DNA of 42,965 bases from Chloroflexales bacterium ZM16-3 (GTDB taxonomy: Bacteria > Chloroflexota > Chloroflexia > Chloroflexales > Chloroflexaceae), in contig RYFE02000042.1 of NCBI GenBank assembly GCA_004138175.2, positions 1 to 42,965 of the forward strand, written 5' to 3'. The notes beneath the pieces are model-generated. The model had not been told where the DNA came from, did no database searches, and saw only the letters and a program-made list of their open reading frames with translations. Of the stretch, positions 2,336-29,739 are shown piece after piece (the first letter of the stretch is position 1; every line of letters starts with the position of its first letter). A program made the translations under genes and the position numbers.

Positions 2336-3406
2336 ATGAGCGCGGCCGACAACCATGACTTCATCGATCCCGCCAGCTTCCGCAGCATCGATAGCCTGGC
2401 GATCCGCGACACCCACCCGGGCATGCTGAACATGGATCGGGTCAGGCTGCATGTACAGCGGGCAATCGAGCGCCGGCGCTACGACGGGCCGATCGACAGC
2501 GATGACCCGACCGTCTACCTCATCCACAGCCGCTGCCTGATCGCCGACGGCGACGAGCACCGCGTGACCCCGGCCGGCCTACTCTGCTTCGGCTACAACC
2601 CCCAGGAGGTTCTGCCGCACGCCGTCGTGAACCTGACCCACTACCGAGGCACGGTGCCCGACTCCACCGACGCCGTCCATATCGAGCGCAACATTGACGG
2701 CACGATCTTCGACCAGCTCGCCCGCGTGGAGGAATACCTCTCCAAGAACACCCACCACGGCATGACCATCCGCCCAGGCAGCTTCGAGCGGGTCGAGATC
2801 GACGAGTACCCCTCCGTGGTGATGCGCGAGCTGAGCGTCAACATGCTCGCCCACCGCGACTATCGGGAGATCCATACGGCGGCCCGTGTCCAGCTCTTCG
2901 CCAACCACATCGAGTGGATGAACCCAGGCGGCCTCCCAGAGGGCGTGACAATCGATCAGCTGCTAGTGACCCAGAAGAGCCGCAACCCGGTGCTATTCTC
3001 CATCCTCTGGGAGAGCGGCCTGATTGAGGGGGTTGGCCAGGGACTCGACACAGTCGTTGCAGTGCTGGCCCGCGAGCAGATGCAGCCACCGCGATTTGAG
3101 GATATGAGCCACCGCTTTTTTGTGGCCACCGTGATGGGCCGACCGCTGGAGACCTTCTACGCCAGCGACATTTACTCACGGCTCTCCGACCGCCAGCGGC
3201 GCATCCTGGCGATCATCCGCGCCCAGGGCGATGTATCTACAAGCGATATTGTTGCCGGGTTCGGCGGTAGCTTCACCCAGCGCTCCGTCCAGCGCGATAT
3301 CAAGGAGCTGCTCAAGATCGGCCTGATCCAAACGATTGGCGGCTCGCACATGACTCGCTATCGCCTCTACGACACCCCACCCGATCAGCCATCGCTCCCC
3401 CTGTAA
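2336..3406 (+). CDS. RecG-C-like (HATPase_4) transcriptional regulator
   Basis: 356 residues, ATG preceded by GAGGAGAG. Residues about 20-270 match the 'ATP-dependent DNA helicase RecG, C-terminal' (HATPase_4) family: 'VTPAGLLCFGYNPQ', 'ALREVSVNMLAHRDY'-like 'VMRELSVNMLAHRDYRE', 'EWMNPGGLPEGVT', 'RNPVLFSILWESGLIEGVGQGLDTV'. The usual N-terminal AlbA_2 (Schlafen) DNA-binding domain is missing or reduced to about 20 residues. The C-terminus (about 285-350) is a winged helix ('RQRRILAIIRAQGDVSTSDIVAGF'). Such proteins are usually annotated as transcription regulators; true helicase motifs are absent. It lies just upstream of the palindrome cluster 3411-3617, which is a plausible binding target (inference). 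Confidence 0.75.
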   Translation: MSAADNHDFIDPASFRSIDSLAIRDTHPGMLNMDRVRLHVQRAIERRRYDGPIDSDDPTVYLIHSRCLIADGDEHRVTPAGLLCFGYNPQEVLPHAVVNLTHYRGTVPDSTDAVHIERNIDGTIFDQLARVEEYLSKNTHHGMTIRPGSFERVEIDEYPSVVMRELSVNMLAHRDYREIHTAARVQLFANHIEWMNPGGLPEGVTIDQLLVTQKSRNPVLFSILWESGLIEGVGQGLDTVVAVLAREQMQPPRFEDMSHRFFVATVMGRPLETFYASDIYSRLSDRQRRILAIIRAQGDVSTSDIVAGFGGSFTQRSVQRDIKELLKIGLIQTIGGSHMTRYRLYDTPPDQPSLPL

Positions 3407-3410
3407 CCTA

Positions 3411-3617
3411 CGCGACACACGCGACATTTCTTGTCGCGCAACGACCCAACCGCACCTACGTTGACCCGATAAGCTGGCTCCACGCGACATGCGCGACATT
3501 TTTTGTCGCGCATGTCGCGTAGCACCCCGATGCGCCCACCTTGCGCGACACGCGCGACATTTTTTGTCGCGCGTGTCGCGGCCATGTCGCGAAAGTCCCG
3601 CTAAACTGTCGCGCAGG
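3411..3617. repeat. Cluster of long palindromes with TGTCGCG/CGCGACA motifs
   Basis: Three hairpin-forming units and extra half-sites fill this intergenic stretch: CGCGACA-5 nt-TGTCGCG (3420-3438); a perfect 17-bp inverted repeat around TTTTT (3482-3520); a perfect 16-bp inverted repeat around TTTTT (3544-3580); then isolated TGTCGCG at about 3584-3591 and 3607-3613. Each arm of the larger units itself holds two CGCGACA motifs. The pattern fits a replication origin iteron array or multi-site operator placed ahead of the primase-helicase gene. Terminator function for the upstream gene is less likely because the T-run is in the loop, not after the stem. Confidence 0.75.
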
Positions 3618-3621
3618 TATC

Positions 3622-3650
3622 TTCTCAACACCGCATTGAATTGGTAAAAT
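3622..3650 (+). promoter_or_regulatory. Candidate extended -10 promoter for primase-helicase
   Basis: TTCTCA (3622-3627), 17-nt spacer, TAAAAT (3645-3650) preceded by TGG (extended -10). A TGTCGCG motif ends 9 nt upstream of the -35, which would allow regulation by whatever binds the palindrome cluster. A 210-270 nt leader without recognisable gene follows (3651-3862). Confidence 0.35.
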
Positions 3651-3862
3651 CAGGTCACTTGTACTGTTGCTGATTTGCTAGCCAGATCATCACCACAGCC
3701 ACCGACGAGCTCTACTACATAACACGAGAAAACCTGCTTGGCCCTCACTCACACGAGGGCAGCACGTCCATAGCCACGGCCACACCGCCGAGGCGTAGCT
3801 TCGTATTGCCTTTGTTCGCGACCATCACATCATAGGGCACTCCGCTGAATCTCACACTGCCA

Positions 3863-6800
3863 ATGGCCGCCGTGAGCTGGCTTTGTGTTGCCATAAACAG
3901 CGAGTGCGGGGAGCACCCCGTGCGACCAGTAGAAAAGATCCACCCGAGCTTACCGCCCCTGCGCCTGGTCAACCGGCGCACGTTAGAACACGTCGGAGCC
4001 TGCCCCTTCTGCGGCGGCGACCACCGCAGCGACCGCTTCCACGTCTGGATGGAGCCCGGAAAAGAGCGCTTCTGGTGCCGGGCCTGCGACGCCAAGGGCC
4101 CGCTGAAAAAGCTGCTCGGCGAGGAGATTCAACCACGCGCCATCGTCAACCGCCAGCAAACGTCTCGTCCGATCGCCCAGCCCAACCCAGCGCACATCGC
4201 CCACTACCGCCAGATCTACGCCATGATCGCGCTCTGGGGCCACACCCTGCTGCTTGATGAGGCCAACCCCGAGCCCCTGGCCTACATCCGCCAGCGCGGT
4301 ATCACGGAGGCAATGATCGGCCACCAGCTGCTCGGCGTCACCCTGCGCGACCCGACGGCCATCCCCGATCTACTGCGCCGCGAGTGTCCCGATCTCCTGC
4401 CCTACGCCGAGGCCGCCGGCGTGCTCATCCGCGACGCGAGCGGCGATCTGCGCGCCCACCCCAACCTCTGCGGCGCCCTGCTCTTCCCCTACCTGGCCGA
4501 TGGAGAGGTCGTCGACCTGCGCGCCCGCTCCTTCCCCGGCAAGGGCTACCGCTCGCTCCCCGGCGGCTATAGCGAGCGTGGCGCGACCGCCCCCTTCGGC
4601 TGGGACAGCCTCGATGGCGGCGACACGATCATCCTCACCGAGGGCGAGTTCAAGGCCCTCGCCGTCACCCAGGCATATCGCGCCGACACGCTCAGCCTGC
4701 CCGCCCTCGCCCACCCCGGCCTCTCCTACCTCCGCGAGGAGTGGGCCGCCCAACTGATGGCCCGCGGCGTCCGCACCGTCATCCTCGCCTACGACAGCGG
4801 CCCGCGCCCGGTCAAGGACGGCGCGCTCCAGCTCGCCCCCGAGGAGACCTGGAGCATCCGCCACGGCCTGCGCCTGGCCGCCGCCGGCCTCGACGTGCGC
4901 GTGCTGCGCCTGCCGCTCGACCCCGGCCAGCAGAAGGCCGACCTCGACGCCTTCCTGCTTGACCACCACCCCGCCCGGCTCCAGCACCTGATCGACAGCG
5001 CCCCCAGCCTGCGCGACTACCACCGCTCTCTGCCGCGCCACCTGCTCCAGCAGGCCAACATCGATCTGCCCGGCAGCTACCCGACACGCCGCGCCCGCCC
5101 GCAGCGCCTGGAGGCGTCAGCGGCCCGCCCGGCCGCGCCACCGCCCAGCGTCAGCCTGGAGCAGATCCGCGCCCAGATCGCCCAGCTTGTCCAGCAGCAC
5201 GCCACCGACGGCCAGGGCTTCCTCGTCCTCGCCCACGCCCCCGGCGTCGGCAAGGGCCACAACACCGTGGAGGGCCTGCGGGCACACCTGCGCAACGCCG
5301 AGTCCCCCGGCCAGATCGTCTGGACCGCCCCGCGCAAGCAGCAGATCCACGACCAGACCGGCCTCGACCTCATCCCGCTCCACGGGCGCAACGACGGCAA
5401 CTGCCGACGGCTGGCCGAGGCCCAGACCCTGGCCGCCAAGGGCTACCCCGTACGCCAGGCGCTCTGCGAGCGCCGCTGCCCCTTCGTCGATCACTGTCCC
5501 TACCTCCGCCAGTTCGGCGTCGAGGCCGACCGCTTCGCCCCCCAGCCGCTCCTGCTCGCCACCGGCTGGTGGCAGGAGGCCGGCGTGCTGGTCATGGACG
5601 AGTTCAACCCGGCCCAGCTCACCAACCAGGTCACGCTCTCCAGCGCGGACCTCGCCGCAATCGGGCGGAGCGCGGACTGCCCCCACACCCAGGCACTCCT
5701 GCGCTGGATGGGCCAGATCCTCGGAACTACCAGCGACCGCACCCTCACCGGCGGGCTGCTGCTCGCCGAGCTGGACGCCGCCGCCCGCGCCGAGGGGCTC
5801 GCCTTCGCTGCCACCCTCACCGCCGCCGAGGCCACCCTGCCCGACGCGGCCCAGCAGGCGCTGCTGCCCGGCATCCCCAACGGCGCGCCCCTGGCCGCAT
5901 TCCAGGCCCTGCCGCCCAATTACCGCACCGTGCTGATCCGCCAACTGGCCCGCGAGCAGCGCCGCCACCGCATGGGCACCGCCTTCACCAGCCGGATCGA
6001 GGTCGGCAATGGCCTGCTGCGCCTGTTCCTCCGCCACGAGCACCTGATCGCCCAGCTCGCCAACCCGCAGCAGCCCAAGATCATCCTCGACGCCACCGTC
6101 AACACGCCGCTGCTCCAGGCGATCTTCCCCGACACGCCCATCCAGATCGAGCAGCCACCCCGCACCGACCAGGCCACGGTGATCCAAGTCATCTCCCGCG
6201 ACTGGGCCAAGAGCACCCTGCACGGCCCGCGCCGCGACCAATGGTACGACGCGGTGGCCCAGCACATCCGGCCTGCCCGACCGACCCTGGTGGTCTGCAC
6301 GCTGGCCGCTGCGGACGACCTGCGGCGGGCGCTCGCCGCGCGCGGCCACCCCGATGTTGTCGTGGCCCATTATGGCGCGCTGCGCGGCACGAATGCCTAC
6401 ACGGGCTATGACGTGATATTGGCCCAAGTCTACCACCCCAACCTGGAGGCGATCACCCGCGCGGGCCGGGCGCTGTTCGCCGACGACGCCGAGGCGCTCG
6501 ACGAGCGGATCATCACCACCGACCAGGTGCTGACGGACGCGACCGGGGCGCGCTGGGCGGTGCAGGTGCCCACCTTCGCCGACGCACGGCTGGCAGCACT
6601 GCTGGAGAGCCAGCGCGAGGCCGAGATGGTGCAGTGCGCCATGCGCGGGCGGCCACTCGACCACCCAGAGGTGCAGATCACCCTGCTCTTTGGCCTGCCC
6701 ATCCCCGGACTGACCCCAACCGAGATCCGCGAGGACACGCCTTCGCCGACAAGCAACGGCGGACGACAGGCCGCCGCCGTGCTGAAGATCATCGCGAGCG

Positions 6801-7264
6801 CAAAGGTGCTCCTGGAGATGGGGCAGACCCGACTCGCAGCAATAGAGCTGGCGCAGGCGGCGGAGGTAAGCGAAGTAACGGTGCGAACACACTGGAAGGT
6901 AGTCGCCGAGACCCTCGGACTCAGCGACGAGGAGGATGCTACCCCGTCCAAACGATGCCGACGCTATCGCCGGCGTGTGCTTGTGTCCACGGCCACCGAG
7001 CGGGATACAGCGGGTGAAAGTACGGATCAGGCGGATAATAAAGACTCTCTTACGTGCCTGATCCATACCGCTGAACCTGACCAGCCGATCAGTGCCAACG
7101 TGAGCGAAACGGCGCAGATGGTGGAATCCGTGCCTGCGAACGAGAAGAAACTGGCGCATGCGAGCTCTTCGCTGTCTCCATGCCTGTCTAAGCCACTGGC
7201 TATGTCCTCCGCTCCTTCTCGCCCACAGGTGCGCTTTGTGCGCCGGGCGTCGCCCAGCGGCTGA
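3863..7264 (+). CDS. Primase-helicase fusion, likely plasmid replication protein
   Basis: 1133 residues from the ATG at 3863; a GTG at 3920 behind GGGGAG may be the true start. Order of parts (numbering from 3863): zinc ribbon C47-x2-C50-x21-C72-x2-C75; TOPRIM-like region with E260 ('ILTEGEFKAL') and D311 ('LAYDSGP'); linker; P-loop APGVGKGHN with K464; four cysteines C514-x20-C535-x3-C539-x5-C545, resembling the Fe-S cluster of XPD/DinG helicases; 'VLVMDEFN' Walker B at about 579; a second helicase-like half; and a C-terminal HTH at about 975-1030 ('AAEVSEVTVRTHWKVV'). Family knowledge: CHC2/TOPRIM proteins make primers and DinG/XPD proteins unwind DNA. Fusion in one chain next to a palindrome array and parAB suggests the element's replication initiator/primase (inference). 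The last 150 residues are less GC-rich and less conserved-looking. Confidence 0.75.
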   Translation: MAAVSWLCVAINSECGEHPVRPVEKIHPSLPPLRLVNRRTLEHVGACPFCGGDHRSDRFHVWMEPGKERFWCRACDAKGPLKKLLGEEIQPRAIVNRQQTSRPIAQPNPAHIAHYRQIYAMIALWGHTLLLDEANPEPLAYIRQRGITEAMIGHQLLGVTLRDPTAIPDLLRRECPDLLPYAEAAGVLIRDASGDLRAHPNLCGALLFPYLADGEVVDLRARSFPGKGYRSLPGGYSERGATAPFGWDSLDGGDTIILTEGEFKALAVTQAYRADTLSLPALAHPGLSYLREEWAAQLMARGVRTVILAYDSGPRPVKDGALQLAPEETWSIRHGLRLAAAGLDVRVLRLPLDPGQQKADLDAFLLDHHPARLQHLIDSAPSLRDYHRSLPRHLLQQANIDLPGSYPTRRARPQRLEASAARPAAPPPSVSLEQIRAQIAQLVQQHATDGQGFLVLAHAPGVGKGHNTVEGLRAHLRNAESPGQIVWTAPRKQQIHDQTGLDLIPLHGRNDGNCRRLAEAQTLAAKGYPVRQALCERRCPFVDHCPYLRQFGVEADRFAPQPLLLATGWWQEAGVLVMDEFNPAQLTNQVTLSSADLAAIGRSADCPHTQALLRWMGQILGTTSDRTLTGGLLLAELDAAARAEGLAFAATLTAAEATLPDAAQQALLPGIPNGAPLAAFQALPPNYRTVLIRQLAREQRRHRMGTAFTSRIEVGNGLLRLFLRHEHLIAQLANPQQPKIILDATVNTPLLQAIFPDTPIQIEQPPRTDQATVIQVISRDWAKSTLHGPRRDQWYDAVAQHIRPARPTLVVCTLAAADDLRRALAARGHPDVVVAHYGALRGTNAYTGYDVILAQVYHPNLEAITRAGRALFADDAEALDERIITTDQVLTDATGARWAVQVPTFADARLAALLESQREAEMVQCAMRGRPLDHPEVQITLLFGLPIPGLTPTEIREDTPSPTSNGGRQAAAVLKIIASAKVLLEMGQTRLAAIELAQAAEVSEVTVRTHWKVVAETLGLSDEEDATPSKRCRRYRRRVLVSTATERDTAGESTDQADNKDSLTCLIHTAEPDQPISANVSETAQMVESVPANEKKLAHASSSLSPCLSKPLAMSSAPSRPQVRFVRRASPSG

Positions 7265-7461: not shown

Positions 7462-7490
7462 TTGACGGCTTGTCAACTGGCGCGTATAAT
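7462..7490 (+). promoter_or_regulatory. Consensus promoter with overlapping operator
   Basis: TTGACG (7462-7467), exactly 17 nt, TATAAT (7485-7490). The -35 is part of the inverted repeat TTGAC-GGCTT-GTCAA (7462-7476), which fits an autorepressor site for the HTH protein encoded 38 nt downstream. A second inverted repeat, TACATA-N7-TATGTA, sits at 7441-7459. Confidence 0.65.
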
Positions 7491-7783: not shown

Positions 7784-7917
7784 GGGGGCACACTGTGCCC
7801 CCCTGGTATTTTCGGCACTCTGATGACGAAAATGCCACAATAAGCAATGATCACCCCAGCGAAGAGGGGGCACAGTGTGCCCCTTGGCATTTTCGGCGTC
7901 CCAATGCTGAAAATGGC
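7784..7917. repeat. Tandem palindromes before parA, candidate parS centromere
   Basis: Two copies of a composite unit, offset by about 82 bp. Each starts with a GC palindrome (GGGGGCACA-C-TGTGCCCCC at 7784-7802; GGGGCACA-G-TGTGCCCC at 7867-7883), followed by an inverted pair around TTTTC/GAAAA (TGGTATTTTCG 7804-7814 with CGAAAATGCCA 7827-7837; TTGGCATTTTCGGC 7884-7897 with GCTGAAAATGGC 7906-7917). A half copy (GTGCCCCCGTG) follows at about 7933. Position directly ahead of parA fits a ParB binding centromere and/or ParA operator. Confidence 0.65.
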
Positions 7918-7985
7918 GATATACGATACGTCGTGCCCCCGTGTGTGTTTACGTGAAGGTGCCGCCAGCCTTGAAAGGACTCGTC

Positions 7986-8771
7986 ATGCGCGTCTACGCC
8001 ATCTCTCTGGAGAAGGGGGGCACCGGCAAGAGCTCGGTTGCGGTGAACCTGGCGGTCGCCTTTCAGCAGCGTGGGAAGCGTGTGCTGCTCATCGATCTCG
8101 ATGCCCAGGGGCACGCGAGCCGATGGCTGGGCGTCGACTCGCGGCGCTCTCGCCCTGAGGATAGCATCCTCGGCGTTATCCGCGGGCGACCGCTGGGTGA
8201 GGGAGCTATTGTCACCGAAGAGGGCGTCGCCGTGATCCCGGCCAATCCTGAGATGGCTGGCCTGCCGGTCGCGCTGGCGAGCGCGCCCAACAACGGCCTC
8301 TTTAGCCTGCGCACGGCGGTGTCCCAGATGGCCTCGCGGGGAGCGCCGTTCGATGTCATCGTCTGTGACCTGCCGCCAGCCCGCAGCCCCATCCTCGCGA
8401 CCGCACTGGCGGCCGCTACCCGCTGCGTGGCCCCGGTGCAGCCTGAGGACCTGGTGCTCCAGGCGCTCGCCGACCTCAGCGAGTCGGTCGCGTACGCGCA
8501 GCAGGTGAACCCGACGCTCCCCGATGTGAGCGTGCTGCGCAACCGCTACGCGCCGCGCAGCGCCGTTGATATGGTCTATGACGAGGAGCTGCGCACGACG
8601 TACGCGGGACAGCTGCTCCAAACGATCATCCCGATGCGGGCTGCTGTCCGCGAGTCGGCGGGTTTTCAGCAGAGCGTGTTTCGCTACCCCAGCAGCGACG
8701 CCAGCGAGGTGCGCGCCCTTTTTCGCCAGCTTGCCGATGAGCTGCTGGCCCTCGATGGAGATCGCCCATGA
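7986..8771 (+). CDS. parA: ParA-family partition ATPase
   Basis: 261 residues. The start is the ATG at 7986, preceded by GAAAGGA, not the upstream in-frame ATG at 7941. It opens directly with the deviant Walker A 'EKGGTGKSSVAVNLA' (about 9-23), followed by 'VLLIDLDAQGHASRWLG' and 'FDVIVCDLPPA', the hallmarks of ParA/MinD ATPases. No N-terminal HTH is present, so operon autoregulation probably rests with ParB or the small HTH protein upstream. Role: ATP-dependent segregation of the replicon with ParB and the palindromic site at 7784-7917. The stop overlaps the parB start (ATGA). Confidence 0.9.
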   Translation: MRVYAISLEKGGTGKSSVAVNLAVAFQQRGKRVLLIDLDAQGHASRWLGVDSRRSRPEDSILGVIRGRPLGEGAIVTEEGVAVIPANPEMAGLPVALASAPNNGLFSLRTAVSQMASRGAPFDVIVCDLPPARSPILATALAAATRCVAPVQPEDLVLQALADLSESVAYAQQVNPTLPDVSVLRNRYAPRSAVDMVYDEELRTTYAGQLLQTIIPMRAAVRESAGFQQSVFRYPSSDASEVRALFRQLADELLALDGDRP

Positions 8772-9889
8772 CCAACGCTGATCGGCGCGCTGCCGCCCTG
8801 AAGGCACGCCGGGCCCAGCAGGCCGATTCGCCGCCCGAGCCTGTTGCCACCGGCACCGAGGCTGCCCGGGCCCACTTCGTCGGTGCCTCGGTCGTCGAGG
8901 CCCTTACCCAGGGGCGCGCCGTGCAGTCCCTCCCCATCGATCAGGTGGCCCCTGAGCTGCAGCCCCAGCTCCGTCAGCCGCGCCTGCTCCCGCTGCCGGA
9001 GGAGCTGCGCAATGATGGTCAATGGGACGAGCAAGAGCGCCCGCTGATCGACGAACTGCTCGCGCTCGGGGAGTCCATGCGCGAGCGGCAGATCCAGCCG
9101 ATCGTCGTCCACGCGGGGAGCAGCGAGCGCTACCCAGGCGCCCGCTACCTGATCGTCGTCGGTCATCGGCGCTGGACCGCGGCCGCGCTCGTCGGCCTCC
9201 CCACGATCGACGCGATCATCATCGACTCGCCGAGCCCTGAGACCCTCGTCGCTATTCAGTTTAGCGAGAACGAGGATCGAGCTGAGTTCTGCGATATGGA
9301 GCGCGCATGGGCCCTGGAGCGTATGCGTCAGATCCTGCCGGATACGCCATGGGAGACCATCGAGACGCGCTTCCGCCTGAGCGAGAGCCGGCGCAAACAA
9401 CTCATGCGACTCACCACCTTCACGCCGCAACAGCAGCGCCTTGTTGCCCGCCTGCGGGCCTCGGAGTTCCAGCTTCGCCCGCTCCATACGGCGATCCGCG
9501 AGGGCGGGCTCGACACCGCACAGGCTGATCGTGTGTTCGCACAGCTCGTCACACACGCCACCTCGAACAGGTCGACCGTCGCGGGAGCTGAGAGCACCGC
9601 TCCACCCGCGACGCTCGTCCTCGACCAGGCGACGGTATCGCGCCTGGTCGCTCGGTCACAGAAAGCCGAGGCCACCGCATCCATCCCGCACCCGCGTTGG
9701 GTAGCACCACTTCAGCAGAGCATGCAGCAGACGCGATCCGGCCTGGAGCGCGCAGCACCAAAAGTCGGCGATCTCGATGAAGCGACCCTCGATGCGCTGG
9801 AGCAGGAGGTCGGGGCGCTGCTCTCGGCACTAGAGACAATGGTGAGCACACTCGCGGCCCGCGAGCGCACCGAGGAGGGCGACGCCTAG
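8768..9889 (+). CDS. parB: ParB-family partition protein
   Basis: 373 residues, start overlapping parA by 4 bp, so translationally coupled. Residues about 55-170 are the ParB/Spo0J N-terminal nuclease/CTPase fold: 'ERQIQPIVVHAG', 'YLIVVGHRRWTAAALVGLP' (GERR box variant GHRR), 'ETLVAIQFSENEDRAEF' (the QxxENxxR motif). A central HTH-containing stretch ('ETIETRFRLSESRRKQLMRL') follows, then a helical C-terminus with a leucine-rich segment (about 335-368) for dimerisation. Family knowledge: ParB loads on parS and stimulates ParA. Position after parA and next to tandem palindromes supports plasmid or element partition. Confidence 0.85.
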   Translation: MTNADRRAAALKARRAQQADSPPEPVATGTEAARAHFVGASVVEALTQGRAVQSLPIDQVAPELQPQLRQPRLLPLPEELRNDGQWDEQERPLIDELLALGESMRERQIQPIVVHAGSSERYPGARYLIVVGHRRWTAAALVGLPTIDAIIIDSPSPETLVAIQFSENEDRAEFCDMERAWALERMRQILPDTPWETIETRFRLSESRRKQLMRLTTFTPQQQRLVARLRASEFQLRPLHTAIREGGLDTAQADRVFAQLVTHATSNRSTVAGAESTAPPATLVLDQATVSRLVARSQKAEATASIPHPRWVAPLQQSMQQTRSGLERAAPKVGDLDEATLDALEQEVGALLSALETMVSTLAARERTEEGDA

Positions 9890-10046: not shown

Positions 10047-10859
10047 ATGGTTGACCCGATTGAGACGCTCGTCGTCACCTTCTTCGATATCCCCGTGTTG
10101 GCGGCACGCTCGCCTGACGGCCGTATCTTCCTGGCTATCCGCGACCTATGCACATCAGTCGGCCTTAGCCGCGAGTCCCAGATGCGTCGGCTGCGCACTG
10201 ACCCCGATCTTAGTATTGGGCTCCAGACCTTTCGCATTGAGACGGCGGGCGGCCCACAGCCCCAGGAGTTCCTACTGCTGGAGCACGTCCCGCTCTGGAT
10301 ATCGGGCGTCACGCGCCGGAAGGCTACGCCGGACATCCAGGATCGGCTGCGCTTTCTGAAGCTCTTTATCATTGGCCATGTCCACGATGCTATTGCTCAG
10401 GCTGCCGGCCTGCCGGCGGGATCGAGCCGCAACATCGAGGATCTGCGCGATCTGGAGCGCTACGATACGGCTATTCAGGGCATTGCCGCACGCACAGAGG
10501 CGCTAGAGGAGAGCCAGGGGAAGGCGCGTACGGCCTGGCGCGAGCACGAGGGGCGCATCCGTCGGCTGGAGGAGCAGATCCGCTCAATGCTCCGTCTCTC
10601 GCCAACCCAGCGGGGCACAATCTACGAGCAGGTTCACGCCTGGGGGCGGGCGCGGGCCGACCGCGAGGGCATCCCTTTTGGGGCAGCGATCGCGAAGTGC
10701 TGGGGGACGCTCAAGGCTCGCTTCACCGTGGCGAAGTACGAGGACATTCCCGCTGCACAGTACGAGGAGTGCCTGCGCTTTATCCGCCAGTCCTATGCAG
10801 AGGAGACCGGCGAGTCGCTCGGGGGCGACCAGCTGCAGCTTCCAGGGATAGAGCCATAG
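10047..10859 (+). CDS. Phage-type antirepressor (P22_AR_N / ORF6C)
   Basis: 270 residues. Residues about 8-120 resemble the phage antirepressor N-terminal domain ('VTFFDIPVLAARSPDGRIFL', 'IRDLCTSVGLSRESQMRRL', 'EHVPLWISGV'). A helical linker with coiled-coil character follows (about 145-185), then an ORF6C-like C-terminal domain ('LSPTQRGTIYEQVHAWGRAR', 'ARFTVAKYEDIP'). Family knowledge: these proteins antagonise or replace repressors in prophages and phage-plasmids. The gene is isolated between inverted repeats upstream and a 481-nt gene-free gap downstream. The likely role is to control the element's lifestyle switch (inference). Confidence 0.75.
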   Translation: MVDPIETLVVTFFDIPVLAARSPDGRIFLAIRDLCTSVGLSRESQMRRLRTDPDLSIGLQTFRIETAGGPQPQEFLLLEHVPLWISGVTRRKATPDIQDRLRFLKLFIIGHVHDAIAQAAGLPAGSSRNIEDLRDLERYDTAIQGIAARTEALEESQGKARTAWREHEGRIRRLEEQIRSMLRLSPTQRGTIYEQVHAWGRARADREGIPFGAAIAKCWGTLKARFTVAKYEDIPAAQYEECLRFIRQSYAEETGESLGGDQLQLPGIEP

Positions 10860-17000: not shown

Positions 17001-18062
17001 CTGGTCCTCCAGGTCGAGCTGGTCGCCGGGGAGCGGGCGGCGGCGGAAGATTGCGGCGTGGTCGGGCGCGGTGATGGATAGCTCGGGCTGGAAGACCCAG
17101 GCGCCATCCTTGTTGCGGGGCGGCTCCTCCTGGCCATTGACCAGGAAGAGGGTGACGATCCATGCGCCCAGGCGCTTGCGGATCACGCCCTGGAGCGTGA
17201 CGCCGGGGTGCGCCGCGCTGATCGCCTGCGGCGCGATCTTGCCGTGGCGCAGCGTGATCGCGGGCAGGGGGACGACCACCGGCGTGCGCTTCCAGGGGTG
17301 GTGGTAGCTGCCGTCGGGCCGCCGGAAGCGATCTTCTTTGATCTCGACCCGCGCATAGTGCCCCCAGCGCACCGTCACCGTGATCGCGGTGGCCTCCAGG
17401 GCGACGGCGAAGGTCAGGCCGATGGAGGAGGGCAGCATGGCGGTGGTCGCCTTGGGCGGCGGGGCGTCGCTCGCGCCGTCCTCGCCATCGCTGCCGCCGA
17501 GGTCGCCGTCGTCGTACTCCTCGGGGATGCCGCTGCTGGCGCGCGGGGCGAGCATGCCGACCAGGTAGCGCCCGCGCACAGTCGCCTCGTCCAGCACCTC
17601 CTCGGGGCCGCCCCAGGGGCCGAGCAGCTGGCGGACGACTAGGTCTTCGAGCTGATCACGCAGGCCAGAAGGCCGGGCAGGCTCACGCAAAGCCGCAAAG
17701 TCGCTAAGGCCGGGCAGCCGCGCAGGCTCACGCAACGCTGCTATGTCACTCTGATCGTCCTCACGTTGCGGCTTTGCGGCTTTGCGTGAGATCTCCGGCT
17801 CCCGTCCGTGCCGCCGGTCGAGCCAGGCGATGAGCTGCTCGCCGAGGGCGGGGCTGAGGGTGGTCGCGTCGATCACCTCGCCCAGCTCGGCGATGTCCCA
17901 GCTGGCGGGGATGGCGGCGAGCAGGAACTCTAGCTGCTCGGGGTCGAGCGACTCCACCCCGCTGCCGTCGAGGGTGATCTCGCCACGGGCTAGGCGCCCG
18001 CCGATCTCGGCGATTGCGCCCGGCCCGCTTTTCAGAATGCTAGAAAGCTTGATGCGATTCAT
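14028..18062 (-). CDS. drmA: DISARM DrmA, large helicase
   Basis: 1344 residues. Helicase motifs: Walker A 'LWFPTGGGKTEAYLGL' (about 628-643), DExH box 'LIIQDELHLISGPLGTLVGL' (about 880-899, typical of DrmA), motif III-like 'LIASTATIRRADQQ', motifs V/VI 'ATNMISVGVDVSRLGLMLV' and 'YIQATSRVGRQHPG' (about 1110-1145). Zinc-type cysteines (CPWC, CGSLMNHCPF) fall between the helicase halves. Family knowledge: DrmA pairs with DrmB as the DNA-binding engine of DISARM. Two palindromic repeats are inserted in frame: one near residues 90-128 (17683-17789) and one just before the Walker A (16240-16346), about 35 residues each. The start overlaps the RelE-UvrD stop by 4 bp. Confidence 0.93.
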   Translation of the reverse strand: MNRIKLSSILKSGPGAIAEIGGRLARGEITLDGSGVESLDPEQLEFLLAAIPASWDIAELGEVIDATTLSPALGEQLIAWLDRRHGREPEISRKAAKPQREDDQSDIAALREPARLPGLSDFAALREPARPSGLRDQLEDLVVRQLLGPWGGPEEVLDEATVRGRYLVGMLAPRASSGIPEEYDDGDLGGSDGEDGASDAPPPKATTAMLPSSIGLTFAVALEATAITVTVRWGHYARVEIKEDRFRRPDGSYHHPWKRTPVVVPLPAITLRHGKIAPQAISAAHPGVTLQGVIRKRLGAWIVTLFLVNGQEEPPRNKDGAWVFQPELSITAPDHAAIFRRRPLPGDQLDLEDQRTAMLYRNEVEFAVGHGVAVDATPARDADGQRIHDSAVAVRTVVLPTYDVPQTTQPTPADPGFARLADLTIDMAALAAVPDGQFAAHLAPLAAVYADWIARQEARLQTPTPDLVPFINAGEESLRHCRLALARIREGITLLDTNPQAASAFRFANRAMALQRTRSLYAASVRRGEKKAPADFDRPEDHAWRAFQLGFMLINLPALTDPRHPDRLAPDVSRKAAKAQREGGIDNVAAFDKPSGLSGLSGFAALREPARLPGLDDGTPLGEADLLWFPTGGGKTEAYLGLTAYTLGIRRLQGVVGGRSGMTGVAVLMRYTLRLLTLQQFQRAATLICACEVIRREDPARWGDEPFRLGLWVGQRSTPNWVEDADEAIKQLKKGGNAGGGSPAQLKHCPWCGTPIDPGRDLTAELPEQGRSRVLMYCGSLMNHCPFNARQSDGEGLPVLVVDEEIYHRLPALLIATVDKFAQMPWNGRVAALFGQVNGYCERHGYLTPDTDHPAQSHPAIKGGRHGPARVLPATPLRPPDLIIQDELHLISGPLGTLVGLYEAAVDQLASWELDGLRVRPKLIASTATIRRADQQVHSLFLRNVAIFPPQGLDAGDTCFAIPRPPSDAYPGRRYLGICAPGIRHKTALIQSYVAFLAAAQQLYETAMRGADPYMTLVGYFNALRELAAMRRAVDDTVSTRLKKMHQRGLPTRFLDPWSVRELTSRLSAADIPEMLDRLEAPFDPAQRPEKGRKRAPSQFPVDVLLATNMISVGVDVSRLGLMLVAGQPKSTAEYIQATSRVGRQHPGLVATIYNWARPRDLSHYERFTHYHATFYQHVEALSVTPFSPRALDRGLSGVLVALARIGAATYNPNLGAGRLSRSDQGIAEAVATIVRRAEAIDGPKRAGLIQSAITERLDYWQARIAATVSAKLGYQRAGGDTVGLLSPPGDGDWSLFACLNSLRDVEPTVNLILEDGGLDGGGQRWQYATEGAPAAAAPTEDEE
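16240..16346. repeat. SRKAAK palindromic repeat in drmA, copy 1
   Basis: The inverted ends are TCACGCAAAGCCGCAAAGCC on the left and GCGCCTTTGCGGCTTTGCGTGA on the right, with a core shared with 27362-27471 and 27968-28074. On the drmA strand it reads through as 'SRKAAKAQREGG...DNVAAFDKPSGL...GFAALRE' with no stop, directly before the Walker A region. Confidence 0.85.
17683..17789. repeat. SRKAAK palindromic repeat in drmA, copy 2
   Basis: Same inverted ends as copy 1 but a different core: an internal second left end (TCACGCAACGCTGC) makes it a nested form. It encodes 'SRKAAKPQREDDQSDIAALR' followed by 'FAALREPARPSGL' in drmA, near residues 90-128. Confidence 0.85.
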
Positions 18063-20182
18063 TGTTCGTCCCTGGCCCAGGTCGGCGGCTGGAGCGGCTC
18101 CAAGAAGGGCGAGAGGGCATCGCGGGAGCCGCAGACCAGCAGTGCGCGCATTGCCCGTGAGCAGCCGACGTAGAAGAGTCGGCGCTGTTCATCCTCCATC
18201 GCCGCCAGCTCATCGTCGGGATAGTCCGCGATCACGCGCGGGAAGCGCCCGGCGTCCAGGCCGACCACGGCGACAAACGGGAACTCCAGCCCCTTGGCCG
18301 AGTGGATGGTGATCACCTTGACCTGCTGGGCGGTGATGTCGATCTGCCTGCCCGACTGGAAGACCGCCGGTAGGCCCAGGTCGCTCAGGCGCCGGGCCAG
18401 GTTCTCGCCGGCATGTTTGCTCTGGCAGAGCACCGCGCCGCTGTGGGCGGGCAGCCGGTAGCGCTGGGCCGCCGCGCGGAAGAAGGCCAGGATCGCCGCA
18501 GCCTCCTCGGCGGTGTCACCCACCAGCGTGATCGCCGGCGGGTCGCCCTGGTGCGCGGACGGCTCCTGGCTGAGGCTCTCGGCGTCGCCCGCCGCCGAGC
18601 CGGCCAGAATGTCGGCGCAGGCAGTGATGATCTGCGCGGTGTTGCGGTAGTTTCGCCTGAGCAGGATCGTCCGCCCGGTCATGCGCAGGTCGGTGTGGAC
18701 CTGACTCCAGCTGAATCCGCGCTGGTAGAGCGACTGGGATGCGTCGGCGGTGAGGTAGACGTGCGCCAGCGAGGGCACCAGGTTGAGTAGGAAGCGCAGG
18801 GCCACCGGTGAGAGGTCTTGGGCCTCGTCGATCACCAGCGCCTGGTAGGGCTTCGGGTCGAGCGTGGCCGCGACCTCTAATGCCCCACGGCGGATCTGCT
18901 CGTTCAGCACGACGCCGTTGTCGCGCATCAGCGCGCGCCAGTGGACGTAGACCGCCCAGATCGCCGCGCGGACCGTCGCTTTGAGCGGGGTGCGCCGACC
19001 ACGCCGCTCGACCGCCAGGTACTCCTCGGCGCTGCGAATGTCCCACGCCTCGATCACGCTCAGGAACTCCTGGAGCAGATAGTCGCGGCCGAGTTTCTCC
19101 AGCGCCGTCTGCCGCACCTGCCGGTCGAAGGCGTTGGTGGCGGGGATCTCCGCCTCACGGAGCGCCGCGTCGAGTAGATCCAGGGCCTGACCCTCGGTGG
19201 CGAAGCTGGGCCAGCCCGACCCCTTGGCGAAGTAGTGCGAGGCCATGCTATCGACCGTCGTCACTTTCACGCCGCACTTCGCTGGCGGCTTGCCGAGCAG
19301 GTGGGTGAGCAACTGCTCGGAGTAGCCCACCAGGGCGTTGGTGTAGGTCGTGAAGAGGATCGGGGTCACGCCCTGGTCGATCAGGCGCTGCACGCGGTAG
19401 AGGGCCAGGGTGGACTTGCCGGTGCCGGGGCCGCCCTTGACCAGGGTCGGCCCGGCGCGATCCTGCGCGACGAGCTCGCGCTGCTCGGGGGTGAGGCGCA
19501 GCAGGAAGCTGCCCAGATCCTCCTCGGCGAAGCGCTCGACGGCCTCCGGCTCGGGCAGCACGAACTCGGGCTGCGCGGCGATGGCGTCGAGGGCGCGCGG
19601 GAAGAGGTTGTCGAGAATACGGCTCAGGAAGCGCTCGGGGATCGTCAGCTCCAGCAGATCGTCCTCGGTGTGCGCGGCCAGGGCGGATGGCCGGTGGGCG
19701 ACCGGGATCTGCCACTGGGCCAGCAGTTCATCGGTGAGGATGATAGGCAGGGGTGTCGGGATTGGGGGGTGGGGGTCGGGGATTGGAATCGTATCAAGGT
19801 TGGGGGCCGTGGTAAACGAACTGCCCGATCCCTGATCCCTGACCCCCGACCCCTGTGGCTGCGGCTCCAGCGCATCCGAGTCGGGAGCAACCGCAGGTAG
19901 CACCACATCCGGCAGGTCATCCGCAAAGGTGCGCTCGTCGCGCTTGCGCACGCTGAGCAGCTTGACCCATGCGTGGCCGATGCTGTAGAAGACCCGGTAG
20001 TCGCCAACGCGGGCGCGGTAGACGTTGGCAAAGCCCTTGAGCTTCTTGGCGTCGCCATGGGCCGAGTGCGGCTCCTCAGCCAGCACCTTCAGCTTCTGGC
20101 CAACGAGCTTGCTGATGTGCTTCGGCAGGCCCAGGGACTCGTTGTAGAAGGTCGGGGTGAAGGAAAGCTCGTACGCTGGCAT
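18059..20182 (-). CDS. RelE/ParE-UvrD fusion helicase
   Basis: 707 residues, start ATG behind AGGGGAGA. Residues 1-90 have the RelE/ParE toxin fold signature ('FTPTFYNESLGLPKHISKLV', 'KKLKGFANVYRARVGDYRVF', 'VKLLSVRKRDERTF'). A linker of about 70 residues follows. The rest is a superfamily I UvrD/Rep helicase: Walker A 'VKGGPGTGKSTLALYRVQRL' (about 248), Walker B 'LVIDEAQDLSPVAL' (about 450), 'LRRNYRNTAQI', 'VKVITIHSAKGLEFPFVAVV', 'RRLFYVGCSRAMRALLV'. The two parts are one continuous frame. No cognate antitoxin gene is adjacent. It ends inside the drmA start codon (4-bp overlap), so its product is made together with DrmA. It is not a standard DISARM subunit, and a role as accessory helicase is inference. 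Confidence 0.85.
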   Translation of the reverse strand: MPAYELSFTPTFYNESLGLPKHISKLVGQKLKVLAEEPHSAHGDAKKLKGFANVYRARVGDYRVFYSIGHAWVKLLSVRKRDERTFADDLPDVVLPAVAPDSDALEPQPQGSGVRDQGSGSSFTTAPNLDTIPIPDPHPPIPTPLPIILTDELLAQWQIPVAHRPSALAAHTEDDLLELTIPERFLSRILDNLFPRALDAIAAQPEFVLPEPEAVERFAEEDLGSFLLRLTPEQRELVAQDRAGPTLVKGGPGTGKSTLALYRVQRLIDQGVTPILFTTYTNALVGYSEQLLTHLLGKPPAKCGVKVTTVDSMASHYFAKGSGWPSFATEGQALDLLDAALREAEIPATNAFDRQVRQTALEKLGRDYLLQEFLSVIEAWDIRSAEEYLAVERRGRRTPLKATVRAAIWAVYVHWRALMRDNGVVLNEQIRRGALEVAATLDPKPYQALVIDEAQDLSPVALRFLLNLVPSLAHVYLTADASQSLYQRGFSWSQVHTDLRMTGRTILLRRNYRNTAQIITACADILAGSAAGDAESLSQEPSAHQGDPPAITLVGDTAEEAAAILAFFRAAAQRYRLPAHSGAVLCQSKHAGENLARRLSDLGLPAVFQSGRQIDITAQQVKVITIHSAKGLEFPFVAVVGLDAGRFPRVIADYPDDELAAMEDEQRRLFYVGCSRAMRALLVCGSRDALSPFLEPLQPPTWARDEQ

Positions 20183-21582: not shown

Positions 21583-22272
21583 CTATCTCTCTGGCTCGAT
21601 AAGCCGTAACTCGACGAATGCGCTGGCGAGCGCTGCCTCAAAGGTGAGAAAGGAGGGGACACGGCGGAGCTGATGAAGCCTGATCCGTCGGCCCAGCGAT
21701 TCGTGGATTTGGGAGAGGTCATGCGCGCGCCGCTGACGCCTGCGATTCGTGCCAAATGCTTGGCGCACTGCCTCGGCAAGCACGCGCTTTGGCTCTGGAA
21801 TACGTTCTACCTGATGCGGTACCGCAGGCAGCCCGAGGGATTGCGTGTCCTCGTCGGTGCCAATAATGGCACACAATGTCAGGCCGTCGGCTAACATCCA
21901 CGACTCAAGCATACGCACGGGTATCAGCGGGATGAGATGGCGACAGACATCTGTTCCCGCAGCACGCGCAGCTTCCACGAGCAGAAGCCCAGGTGTGTAG
22001 CGCTCGCGCATGGCCCGCTCGACCGATGGCGCATCTGCGTCCATGTGGATCGCGAGCGCCTGGGAGCCAGCAAACTGCTGCGCTAACCACAAGATACCCT
22101 CGGCCTGAGTCGCGATGTCAGGCGGAAATCTGCGTACCACCGGGTCGAGGACATCGGTTGTGCCGATACCGCGCTGTCGTAACAGATCATCCGCCGTGCG
22201 TTGGAGGAGCGGTTGGAAGAATCGCTCGTCTGTTGGCCCTTCTACCGCCAGTGCCATCACCAACATACTCAT
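21583..22272 (-). CDS. DUF4276-like, TOPRIM-type protein
   Basis: 229 residues, starting inside the end of the ATPase gene (4-bp overlap). The N-terminus 'MALAVEGPTDERFFQPLLQR' has the E-G-x-T-D/E signature of TOPRIM/OLD-like nucleases. Further conserved acidic positions are 'LAIHMDADA' (DxD) and 'RMLESWMLAD'. Family knowledge: DUF4276 proteins typically pair with an AAA ATPase, much like the ATPase/TOPRIM couples of OLD and PARIS defence systems. Probable effector nuclease of the pair (inference). The ATPase partner is the gene immediately upstream. Confidence 0.75.
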   Translation of the reverse strand: MSMLVMALAVEGPTDERFFQPLLQRTADDLLRQRGIGTTDVLDPVVRRFPPDIATQAEGILWLAQQFAGSQALAIHMDADAPSVERAMRERYTPGLLLVEAARAAGTDVCRHLIPLIPVRMLESWMLADGLTLCAIIGTDEDTQSLGLPAVPHQVERIPEPKRVLAEAVRQAFGTNRRRQRRAHDLSQIHESLGRRIRLHQLRRVPSFLTFEAALASAFVELRLIEPER

Positions 22273-23735
22273 TGTGATAATCCTGGCTTCAATGTTTCGA
22301 GCGCCTCGCCGAGATCGACGGTGCTGAGATAGCGTTCGACCTCGCCGAGCGTGTACATTCGCTCCGCCTCATCCGCCGGGAGATCGAGCCGTGTTTGTCG
22401 GTGTGGCGTAACCGGGGCCATGCGCGTGACACGCACACTTCCAGATGGCAACTTGCCATGTACTCGTGTCGCGGTATAGGCAAAAAGGAGCCCTGGAATC
22501 GACTCACCACCCATCTTTTTGCTCTGTTTGACGTACTCCAGCATGAGGACTGGCGAGTGGGTATTGACAAGCATTTGGCGGAGGGGGAGGTGGATCGCAT
22601 CATCGTCATCAAAGTGTGTGGCGAGATCGCGCAAGAGCTGTACGGTGTTGTGGATACGGGCTGGGTGTACGCCGTTCTCTGGCTCTTCGAAGCAAAGGAC
22701 GCCCTGATACTCCGGGTCGTTCTTGAGCGTGATCAGCGCAAGTAGGCGCAGCGTGCCGTCAGAGAGGATGCGCGAGGAGAACCTGCGTCCATCCTGGGTG
22801 GTCGCATACATGACATAGCGATTTCGGGATGCGTCCTCTTCTACCTCAAGGGTTGTAATCCCAGCGACAAGCTCGGCAAGATCACGCGCAATGTCTTGCA
22901 GGATATAGCGATGTTCTGCCTTGAGGCGGGCGAGTGTGGACGGCAGAAAGCTCCCGTCGGGGGCGAGCGTCTGCTGCGCGTTCATCGAGCTTGGCTGGCG
23001 TAATGACCGTGGGTTGAGCTGGAGGAACCGCCACGAGCGCATCTCTTCACGCGCCGCGAGGGCGTGGGGGAACTCGGTGTTGGTCACGCCACTCAGCATG
23101 GTGCGCTCGATCCGCTCGGCGACGCTCGACTTTCGCCCACCGTGGCCGTCTTGGTGTAGGGAGATTGTCGGGACACCCTCGTGCTGTGTGGTTGATGTGG
23201 ATATGAAGTGTTCTTTCCGACTGGCGCGCATTCGACCAGCGCGTAACGGGGGTATCCAGTGCGCTTGGTTGCGGCGAATATGATCTGTGGCCCACGGATC
23301 ACGGTCATGAAAGATGGGGGCGAGTCGCTCATGCGTGACATACAGCCGCTCTAGGCCCCGATCATCTTTGCGTCGCTCGATCTCTAGCTCGTAGCGCATC
23401 CGGGTATATTTGAGCCGCTCCTCGGCTCCCCAGCTATCGCGGATGGATGGCTCGACCAATAACTCTACTCCAAATCGCATCTTTGTACGCGGGATACCAT
23501 CAGGGCCGATGGTAAAGAGCTCGTAGGCATCGCCGCGCATCTCTTCGCGCTCTGTCTCAGGGCTCTGGAATGCGGTGCGCAGGTCGTTGTCGGCAAGGCG
23601 TGAGAGCAGGCGTAACACATCGAAGAGATTGCTCTTCCCGACGGCATTGGCCCCAACAACGCACACCACTGGCTCAAGATCAAGGGCGAATTCCTGAAAC
23701 ATCTTGAAGCCGTCGATCTCAATGCGTGTGATCAT
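22269..23735 (-). CDS. AAA_21/RecF-type ATPase, partner of DUF4276
   Basis: 488 residues. It starts 'MITRIEIDGFKMFQEFALDL' with Walker A 'VGANAVGKSNLFDVLRLL' (about 30-45), signature-like 'SRILSDGTLRLLALITL' (about 320-340), Walker B 'GVLCFEEPENGVHPARI' and H-loop 'MLVNTHSPVLMLEY'. This is the ABC/SMC-like AAA_21 family. Such ATPases sense or gate DNA for a partner nuclease. The 4-bp overlap with the DUF4276 gene supports a two-protein complex. The pair is a self-contained candidate defence module inside the DISARM locus. The -10/-35 region is not obvious. Confidence 0.85.
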   Translation of the reverse strand: MITRIEIDGFKMFQEFALDLEPVVCVVGANAVGKSNLFDVLRLLSRLADNDLRTAFQSPETEREEMRGDAYELFTIGPDGIPRTKMRFGVELLVEPSIRDSWGAEERLKYTRMRYELEIERRKDDRGLERLYVTHERLAPIFHDRDPWATDHIRRNQAHWIPPLRAGRMRASRKEHFISTSTTQHEGVPTISLHQDGHGGRKSSVAERIERTMLSGVTNTEFPHALAAREEMRSWRFLQLNPRSLRQPSSMNAQQTLAPDGSFLPSTLARLKAEHRYILQDIARDLAELVAGITTLEVEEDASRNRYVMYATTQDGRRFSSRILSDGTLRLLALITLKNDPEYQGVLCFEEPENGVHPARIHNTVQLLRDLATHFDDDDAIHLPLRQMLVNTHSPVLMLEYVKQSKKMGGESIPGLLFAYTATRVHGKLPSGSVRVTRMAPVTPHRQTRLDLPADEAERMYTLGEVERYLSTVDLGEALETLKPGLSQ

Positions 23736-23796: not shown

Positions 23797-24165
23797 GGTC
23801 TCGGGTCTCGGATCTCGCCGCCTCAAAATAGCTCCCCCTGCTCGACTGAGGGCTCAGGGCTCGGGTTTTTGGGCTCAGCCGCAGCCTTCCCCTTCCGCCC
23901 GCCCTTGCCTTTCCCCTTATCCGATCCCTTCTTCTTCTCGTGCAGCCCCGCCGCCACCTCCTCCGCGTGCCGCTCGTGGTTCAGCGCCAGCAGCCGGTCG
24001 AGCACTGCCCGCCGCGCCGCCTCGCTGATGGTGTAGCGCAGCCCCTGCTTCGTCTCGTGGAAGCCGTGGCCCAGATCCAGGTCGCCCCAGCCGTAGGCCG
24101 CCGCCACCGCCTCGTCCATCGCGACGTGCAGCCGCCGCAGCTCGGCGATGTCGGCGGATGTTTCG
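23797..24165 (-). pseudogene. Duplicated 3' end of drmMI, no start
   Basis: On the - strand, about 114 codons (24165-23823) match the C-terminus of the methylase encoded at 24919-29697 nearly residue for residue: 'DIAELRRLHV.MD.AVAAAYGW', 'LDLGHGFHETKQGLRYTISE', 'RRAVLDRLLALNH.RHAEE', and the final 'SVEQGELF'. Homology continues about 25 nt past the stop codon. The Lys/Gly-rich linker before the last 10 residues has diverged. It stops abruptly at about 24165, next to the toxin-antitoxin promoter. It cannot be expressed as a methylase by itself. Confidence 0.85.
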
Positions 24166-24177
24166 TTGGAGCCATAG

Positions 24178-24186
24178 TGGTACAAT
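24178..24186 (+). promoter_or_regulatory. Extended -10 promoter for the toxin-antitoxin module
   Basis: TGGTACAAT (TGn followed by TACAAT at 24181-24186) lies 45 nt before the antitoxin ATG. No good -35 was seen, as is allowed with an extended -10. It begins right where the duplicated methylase tail ends. Confidence 0.4.
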
Positions 24187-24230
24187 GATCCCCGTGATCG
24201 ATAGCGTACCCTAGCGCTGGAGGCCCATCT

Positions 24231-24488
24231 ATGGTCGATATCGAGATTAAGCTGTCCCTGCCCGATACGCTGGCCCGCGAGGCGGCGGCACGCGGGCTGC
24301 TCACGCCCGCAGCTTTGCAGCAGCTGATCGACGCGGAGGTGGAGCGGCGGCGCAAGGTTGACCGGCTGTTCACGACGATGGACGATCTGGCTGCCGTGAA
24401 CCTCCCGCCGCTGAGTGCTGAGGATCTGAACACCGAGATCAAGGCGGCACGCGCAGAGAGGCGGTTCCGTCGTGCGGGTGGTGCTTGA
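24231..24488 (+). CDS. Antitoxin of PIN toxin-antitoxin pair
   Basis: 85 residues, ATG preceded by TGGAGG. The N-terminus 'MVDIEIKLSLPDTLAREAAARGLLTPAALQQLIDAEVER' style reads as a ribbon-helix-helix-like DNA-binding half; the C-terminal half is charged and probably wraps the toxin. The gene overlaps the downstream PIN toxin by 17 bp, the usual antitoxin-first order. It lies opposite in strand to the whole DISARM operon. Confidence 0.75.
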   Translation: MVDIEIKLSLPDTLAREAAARGLLTPAALQQLIDAEVERRRKVDRLFTTMDDLAAVNLPPLSAEDLNTEIKAARAERRFRRAGGA

Positions 24489-24894
24489 TACCAATATCAC
24501 GGTCTCGGGTCTGCTCTGGCGCGGCGCGCCACGTGTGGTTATCGAGGCGGCGCGGAGCGGGCAGATCGAGCTCTTCAGCTGCGCCGAGCTGCTGGAGGAG
24601 CTGGAAGATGTGCTCCGACGTCCAAAGCTGGCCGCACGGTTCGCGCAGATCGGCAAAGAGCCGACGGATCTTATCGATGAGTATCTGGCACTGATTGCCG
24701 TCATACGTGCTGACCCACTCCCTGCCCCGGTCTCAGTTGATCCTGACGACGATGTCGTTCTGGCGTGCGCGCTCGCTGCACAGGCTGCGGCGATTGTCTC
24801 CGGCGATGATGATCTGCTCAGGTTGAGCGTGTTCCAGGACATGCCTATCCTCACTGCGCCTGAGTTGCTGGCCCGTCTTGCCCCATCGGCGTAG
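24472..24894 (+). CDS. PIN-domain toxin (COG1569-type)
   Basis: 140 residues from a GTG start. PIN nuclease acidic residues are visible: D6 in 'VVLDTNITVSGLLWRG', the Glu-rich 'CAELLEELEDVLRRPKL', 'DPDDDVVLACALAAQA' and 'IVSGDDDLLRL'. This is the 'putative toxin component, PIN family' group rather than classical VapC. Family knowledge: PIN toxins cleave RNA. The stop is immediately followed by the second copy of the duplicated methylase end, so the module fits exactly between the two copies. Confidence 0.85.
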   Translation: MRVVLDTNITVSGLLWRGAPRVVIEAARSGQIELFSCAELLEELEDVLRRPKLAARFAQIGKEPTDLIDEYLALIAVIRADPLPAPVSVDPDDDVVLACALAAQAAAIVSGDDDLLRLSVFQDMPILTAPELLARLAPSA

Positions 24895-24918
24895 CTGCGG
24901 GTCTCGGGTCTCGCCGCC

Positions 24919-29697: not shown

Positions 29698-29739
29698 AGA
29701 CGAGACCTCACACAAAACCGAGATTCTTCGCCGGACGGC

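Follow-up and report, generated by a model that had tools for sequence, protein, structure and literature searches.

The locus and its repeat array

The window analysed here spans contig C65 of a 6.27-Mb genome from end to end (42,965 bases) and carries a dense group of copies of the heptamer TGTCGCG and its reverse complement CGCGACA between the gene of a RecG-C-like regulator and that of a primase (Table 1). Counted in both orientations, the heptamer occurs 24 times in the window against 13.6 expected; 13 of these copies lie within one 210-bp stretch, and elsewhere (outside 3300–3700) there is at most one per 210 bp. The initial annotation had described two perfect hairpins of 16–17 bp around TTTTT, a shorter hairpin and extra half-sites, all built from one 7-mer, and all of these are real, with the half-sites outside the hairpins beginning at 3411, 3585 and 3607. 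As a single strand, positions 3408–3620 fold with an energy of −71.9 kcal/mol (z = −8.6 against shuffles), and hairpins this long and perfect would seem to be more than an operator needs.

The core of the array, GCGCGACATTTTTTGTCGCGC, is found with up to three mismatches at four places in the genome, three of which are in the array itself, so that scattered intergenic copies, as of REP or BIME elements, were not found. Palindromes dispersed as REP elements had been named at the outset as the observation that would speak against a special role for this region, and the genome-wide search does not bear them out. That the hairpins are such elements, or transcription terminators behind the regulator gene, is hard to credit: they do follow the stop codon, and a terminator-like pattern is present at 3541–3557, but the T-runs of both long hairpins lie in the loops and not behind the stems, and the sequence is not scattered in the genome.

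Table 1. Features of the window around the repeat array
Feature	Position	Strand	Basis
RecG-C-like (PF13749, COG2865-type) regulator gene, 356 aa, putative array binder	2336..3406	+	Pfam, homologue synteny
Winged-helix codons (residues 283–346), putative DNA-reading domain	3182..3373	+	AF2 model, covariation with motif
Putative operator array, 13 TGTCGCG/CGCGACA half-sites	3411..3613 (203 bp)	none	Heptamer positions
Short inverted half-site pair, 7-bp arms, 5-nt loop TTTCT	3420..3438	none	Heptamer positions, folding
Perfect hairpin, 17-bp arms, loop TTTTT, four half-sites	3482..3520	none	Repeat analysis
Perfect hairpin, 16-bp arms, loop TTTTT, four half-sites	3544..3580	none	Repeat analysis
Weak promoter candidate CGGCCA-17-TAAACT, register of the relatives	3579..3607	+	7/12, not above chance (P = 0.56 within own sequence)
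TGTCGCG half-site inside spacer of weak promoter candidate	3585..3591	+	Heptamer positions, promoter test
Last TGTCGCG half-site, 22 bp past the preceding one	3607..3613	+	Heptamer positions
Alternative promoter candidate TTCTCA-17-TAAAAT, TG before −10, just past array	3622..3650	+	9/12
Primase(-helicase) gene, putative target	3863..7264	+	PHROG primase, E 3e-17
ParA and ParB genes, replicon-type backbone (context)	7941..9889	+	Pfam

With respect to the neighbouring genes, for which a RecG-C-like regulator and a primase-helicase had been proposed, the first name is upheld by a match of the 2336–3406 protein to HATPase_c_4 (PF13749; E = 5.8e-16, 58.7 bits against a curated cut-off of 26) and the primase by the gene at 3863–7264, whereas the helicase half of the latter protein has no match in the family searches. 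PF13749, the 'putative transcriptional regulators' that we take to be COG2865, is the sole Pfam match of the regulator, which is therefore not a known Cop protein. The closest solved chain is 3lmm_A (E = 4e-11). In an AF2 model that is poor overall (mean pLDDT 49, from three sequences), a C-terminal winged helix is predicted with helices at residues 285–297, 302–308 and 315–328 and strands at residues 331–334 and 341–344; pLDDT values by 10-residue block are 61–83 in this part and 26–73 in the other blocks. The protein thus resembles the COG2865/PF13749 regulators in its ATP-binding-type domain, which scores above the Pfam cut-off, and in its predicted C-terminal winged helix. Unlike the weaker PF13749 relatives used as controls, of which eight of nine are longer (461–607 amino acids), the 40 regulators studied have 326–416 residues. 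A PADLOC match to the model of an Argonaute-associated SIR2 protein (E = 1e-17) covers residues 64–247.

At E ≤ 1e-45 the regulator is present in seven of 400 genomes sampled from the phylum, every one of them in the window's own family. Homologues on plasmids (the best 25 of 88 records) and in phages (all 15 records) have less than 60% identity, and no relatives were found in viral contigs. Most full-length homologues of the primase align from residue 15–30, so that its start may lie further in, for example at the GTG at 3920. Its closest relatives in named records are from Oscillochloris and Chloroflexales, and the plasmid search gave no match; in the ZM17-4 copy (L029/L038) the primase is without about residues 260–718 of the query. 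Between the primase gene and parA are a near-consensus promoter, TTGACG-17-TATAAT, at 7462–7490 and a terminator-like hairpin at 7784.

Linkage of the arrays to the regulator gene

Focusing on the homologues of the regulator, we compared 40 modules, which comprise all homologues with E ≤ 6.2e-44, with nine weaker homologues hand-picked as controls; an array was called when its repeated 8-mer count within 650 bp was matched by at most one in 200 dinucleotide shuffles. A 3′ array, within 650 bp of the regulator gene, is present in 27 of the 40 homologues (17 of 21 closer and 10 of 19 more distant ones), a 5′ array in six and an array on either side in 31, so that 13 have no significant array on the 3′ side and nine have none on either side. 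One of the 40, G019C42, has just 341 bp of 3′ sequence, and at G030C161 a GCTCGACA array lies past 650 bp, where it surfaced among the control genes and is still scored as a miss. The same call gave a 3′ array at four of 80 other genes of these loci (drawn at random from 114) and at two of the nine weaker controls, one of which encodes a short protein of 303 amino acids.

Comparable results are obtained from the side of the primase. The same statistic was applied upstream of 18 primase relatives: none of 200 shuffles reaches it in any of the seven loci in which a regulator is directly upstream (L033, L034, L036, L039, L044, L045 and L048), the arrays there being alike in kind and different in their letters, and none of the 11 loci without an adjacent regulator attains P ≤ 0.005, the lowest values there being 0.01 (L052) and 0.03 (L037). 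At L038 about 2.5 kb separate the regulator gene from the primase, and behind the regulator gene, facing another gene, stands a ATGTCGTTTAT array of its own; at several regulator-less loci the slot is taken by small HTH-like or antirepressor-like genes, as named by eye. In the sequences compared, the repeat arrays follow the RecG-C-like gene and not the primase. The initial annotation had also considered that the hairpins could expose single strands for a primase, that is, serve as sites of single-strand initiation or priming, which an adjacent primase and very stable DNA hairpins would suit. Because no array stands upstream of the 11 primase relatives without an adjacent regulator, this idea is left unsupported; in addition, the arrays of L034, L036, L044 and L045 consist of direct repeats with no repeat-built hairpin (at L034 and L036 an unrelated hairpin precedes the array), and we regard a priming role as scarcely tenable.

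Across these related green phototrophic bacteria, the gene that follows the array varies in kind. A protein belonging to one of the larger similarity groups is encoded within 4 kb downstream in 29 of the 40 modules, and the group representatives match primases (eight modules), initiators with DnaA_N and HTH_36 or of the O-like type (six modules), proteins with DnaD_N and DnaA_N (three modules) and DnaB (five modules). No known domain was found in the three representatives tested of a further group (nine modules), two modules of which also have a gene of the DnaB group. In the other 11 modules this stretch contains different large genes or none, in some cases because the contig ends.

Covariation of motif and winged helix, and position of the sites

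Each homologue is accompanied by a private motif. With automatic motif models of the 27 modules whose 3′ array is significant, motif similarity correlates with winged-helix identity at r = 0.60 and with identity in the rest of the protein at r = 0.45. In partial Mantel tests on the same 27 modules, in which shared ancestry is not fully removed, the winged helix retains its correlation when the N-terminal part is given (r = 0.44, P = 0.0002), whereas the N-terminal part retains none when the winged helix is given (r = 0.003, P = 0.48). An earlier version used 27 hand-read motifs from a partly different set, including one control (G030C29); with these motifs, a window scan along the protein peaks at residues 306–330, the recognition-helix region, which covers the third helix of the AF2 model (315–328) in the most confident part of the otherwise poor model. 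Across 28 pairs from eight loci that carry both the regulator and the primase gene, the correlation of motif similarity is 0.86 with the winged helix, 0.82 with the remainder of the regulator and 0.36 with the primase. Within the window's genome there are five modules with different motifs (on C65, C54, C86, C71 and C34): the primase of the C54 paralogue is 83% identical, its winged helix is 34% identical and its motif is different, and the C71 module has the motif TGGCGCGGTT, compared with TGTCGCG on C65. From these comparisons we infer that the half-site would be read by the C-terminal winged helix of the regulator.

The covariation also bears on a role of the array as a parS-like centromere for the ParB encoded at 8768–9889. 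Multi-copy inverted repeats can act as centromeres, and ParA and ParB are encoded on the same contig, but the occurrence and motif of the array go with the RecG-C-like gene and its winged helix, and parB is about 5 kb away, which makes this role very improbable.

The spacing of the sites is regular. Among 140 pairs of neighbours in the same orientation and at most 45 bp apart, taken from 27 arrays, 78 are spaced by 9–11 bp and 49 by 20–23 bp, so that the sites tend to sit on one face of the helix. Many relatives have their promoter-proximal site between −35 and −10 hexamers directed toward the replication gene, the commonest spacer being 17 bp, and a site occupied there would normally be expected to block RNA polymerase. 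A promoter scoring at least 8/12 with a site in its spacer is present in 17 of the 27 arrays, compared with 5.6 expected, and the mean score exceeds that of all 200 random sets; taken singly, just one of the 27 arrays reaches P < 0.05. Taken together, the synteny, the covariation and the position of the promoters lend good support to the suggestion that the 2336 regulator may be the binder and, of the earlier phrase 'origin or master operator', favour the operator half; the origin half is left unsupported.

Proposed replication control and the origin alternative

The leaders of the replication genes contain a further element. In an alignment of nine primase leaders, the opposite strand carries a conserved unit, degenerate in the window, in which a near-consensus promoter leads into a terminator hairpin. 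In a scan for promoters of at least 10/12 with a terminator within 1 kb, the unit is found on the minus strand in 15 of the 40 modules and on the plus strand in none, with two minus and two plus cases in 93 control regions; the window copy gave no hit, nor did 25 of the 40 modules. The counts at 9/12 are 15 minus and three plus (controls, three and two), and those at 11/12 are 11 minus and none plus (controls, none and one). The 15 aligned hairpins, selected by hand and likewise cut back to the stem, which favours pairing, keep 98.8% of their pairs, with two-sided changes at six of 11 pairs and a covariation score reached in 0 of 500 shuffles. Rfam gave no family at threshold on the stretches submitted, and its miRNA matches, being far below the gathering scores, were taken as chance. 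As a predicted element, the unit resembles the counter-transcribed RNAs of plasmids. The sequence GCTTGGCGGC is present in five of the 15 hairpins, and a convergent antisense promoter with a covarying hairpin also precedes unrelated replication genes at L033, L034, L036, L044, L045 and the plasmid locus L123.

The array is probably the cognate operator of the upstream RecG-C-like regulator, the module as a whole providing Cop-like control of replication; on the sequence evidence, we give this reading a probability of roughly two in three. The C-terminal winged helix would read the TGTCGCG half-site, as the covariation suggests, and copies of the regulator may bind on one face of the helix, as the observed spacing would allow, and presumably do so cooperatively. 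The inverted pairs might serve as a centre of nucleation or looping; the sites nearest the promoter are spaced about two turns apart. Occupation of the promoter-proximal site would then block the promoter from which the replication protein downstream, in this case the primase-helicase of a putative mobile element, is expressed, and the module may thereby set the replication level and incompatibility in the manner of a Cop repressor. A second layer would be added in many relatives by a counter-transcribed RNA encoded in the replication-gene leader, and the ATP-binding domain presumably tunes DNA binding to some signal.

In plasmid R1, the antisense RNA partner of CopB is CopA. The logic proposed here is that of replication control by CopB of R1 and CopG of pMV158, as outlined in the available text of PMC5717011, and CopG acts together with RNAII according to the available text of PMC4485353. 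As in the CopB/CopA and CopG/RNAII systems, the regulator gene lies upstream of the replication gene and sites are predicted at the promoter of the latter; the leaders of many relatives also contain a candidate unit that resembles a counter-transcribed RNA. The differences are that the regulator, of 356 residues, combines an ATP-binding-type domain with a winged helix at its C-terminus, that many half-sites make up an operator of 200 bp, and that one regulator family serves unrelated replication proteins. Since the regulator is a different kind of protein, this would be Cop-like control by a RecG-C-type regulator, outside the CopB and CopG families.

An iteron-type replication origin, with the RecG-C-like protein as its initiator (perhaps also as a promoter repressor) and the downstream proteins as interchangeable helicase loaders or primases, is an unlikely alternative. 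DnaA boxes are common at iteron origins, although optional in some plasmids. The available text of PMC4980987 describes these origins as repeats with a phase of about 22 bp that are read by winged-helix proteins, usually together with DnaA boxes and an AT-rich unwinding region. The present arrays share with the origins of RK2, R6K, F and P1 the multiple short repeats beside a replication gene, several of them phased, with the 20–23 bp spacing close to that of iterons, and the protein–array pairs stand before at least four recognised kinds of replication protein (primase, DnaB, DnaA_N/O-like and DnaD_N/DnaA_N). They differ from iteron origins in their half-sites of about 10 bp, in the occurrence of inverted pairs as well as direct repeats, in the lack of a clear DnaA-box excess or DUE and in a regulator that matches only PF13749 in Pfam. 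Over 27 regions, DnaA boxes with at most one mismatch number four against 2.25 expected, with none in the window, and no AT-rich unwinding step is seen, the mean AT fraction per 50-bp step being 0.37–0.46 around the array end and 0.45 just after it. The primase relatives without an adjacent regulator, which are also without an array, argue in the same direction. The cumulative GC skew of the window, which had been proposed as a check for an origin at the element, turns near 10 kb, where the gene direction changes, and not at 3.4 kb.

More distant and longer homologues (26–31% identity) adjoin ParA/ParB on both complete circular plasmids of Ca. Chlorohelix, which counts in favour of an origin. 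The skew minima of these plasmids are at 129 and 198 kb, compared with 171 and 156 kb for the ParAB-linked homologues, a comparison that we judged uninformative, although there is a second homologue close to the minimum at 129 kb. The array statistic at the plasmid homologues is not significant, save for a TACAGACA repeat 5′ of one of them.

Returning to the Cop-like reading, its extension to the family at large is more tentative, and we hold it as possible rather than probable. RecG-C/Schlafen-type ATP-binding proteins may constitute a class of replication controllers, not described so far, that are specific to their replicons, each reading a private iteron array by way of a fast-changing winged helix and maybe combining origin binding with promoter repression; the cassette would fit before unrelated replication proteins and, with the antisense RNA, could define many coexisting incompatibility groups per genome. 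The five differing modules of the window's genome suggest that mobile elements coexisting in the Chloroflexales have their replication controlled orthogonally, if the Cop-like reading is right. Among the matches listed, the titles and abstract openings name no DNA target for a COG2865, PF13749 or Schlafen/AlbA_2-type protein and describe no such arrays, including those on plasmid replication in Oscillochloris, Chloroflexus and Chloroflexota. On the same condition, a large family that is annotated just as 'ATP-binding protein' or 'putative transcriptional regulator' would gain a DNA target, and at least 27 natural protein–site pairs would be available for deriving a recognition code of winged helices.

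The contig contains several other elements. No exact terminal overlap of 20–399 bases was found on it. A P22_AR-type antirepressor gene (10047–10859) and a tyrosine integrase gene (34103–35137) are consistent with an integrative element. Between 12151 and 33446 lies a DISARM-like set, presumably of class 1, for which PADLOC names DrmB, DrmA, DrmMI (with a second fragment at 23823–24971) and DrmD; inside it are HEC-01 A/B-like genes (21583–23735) and a GajB-like UvrD helicase gene (18059–20182). Dispersed GCAAAGCC repeats occur at 32 places between 16244 and 30199, 19 of which are inside the DrmMI-like gene at 24919–29715, often as neighbouring pairs.
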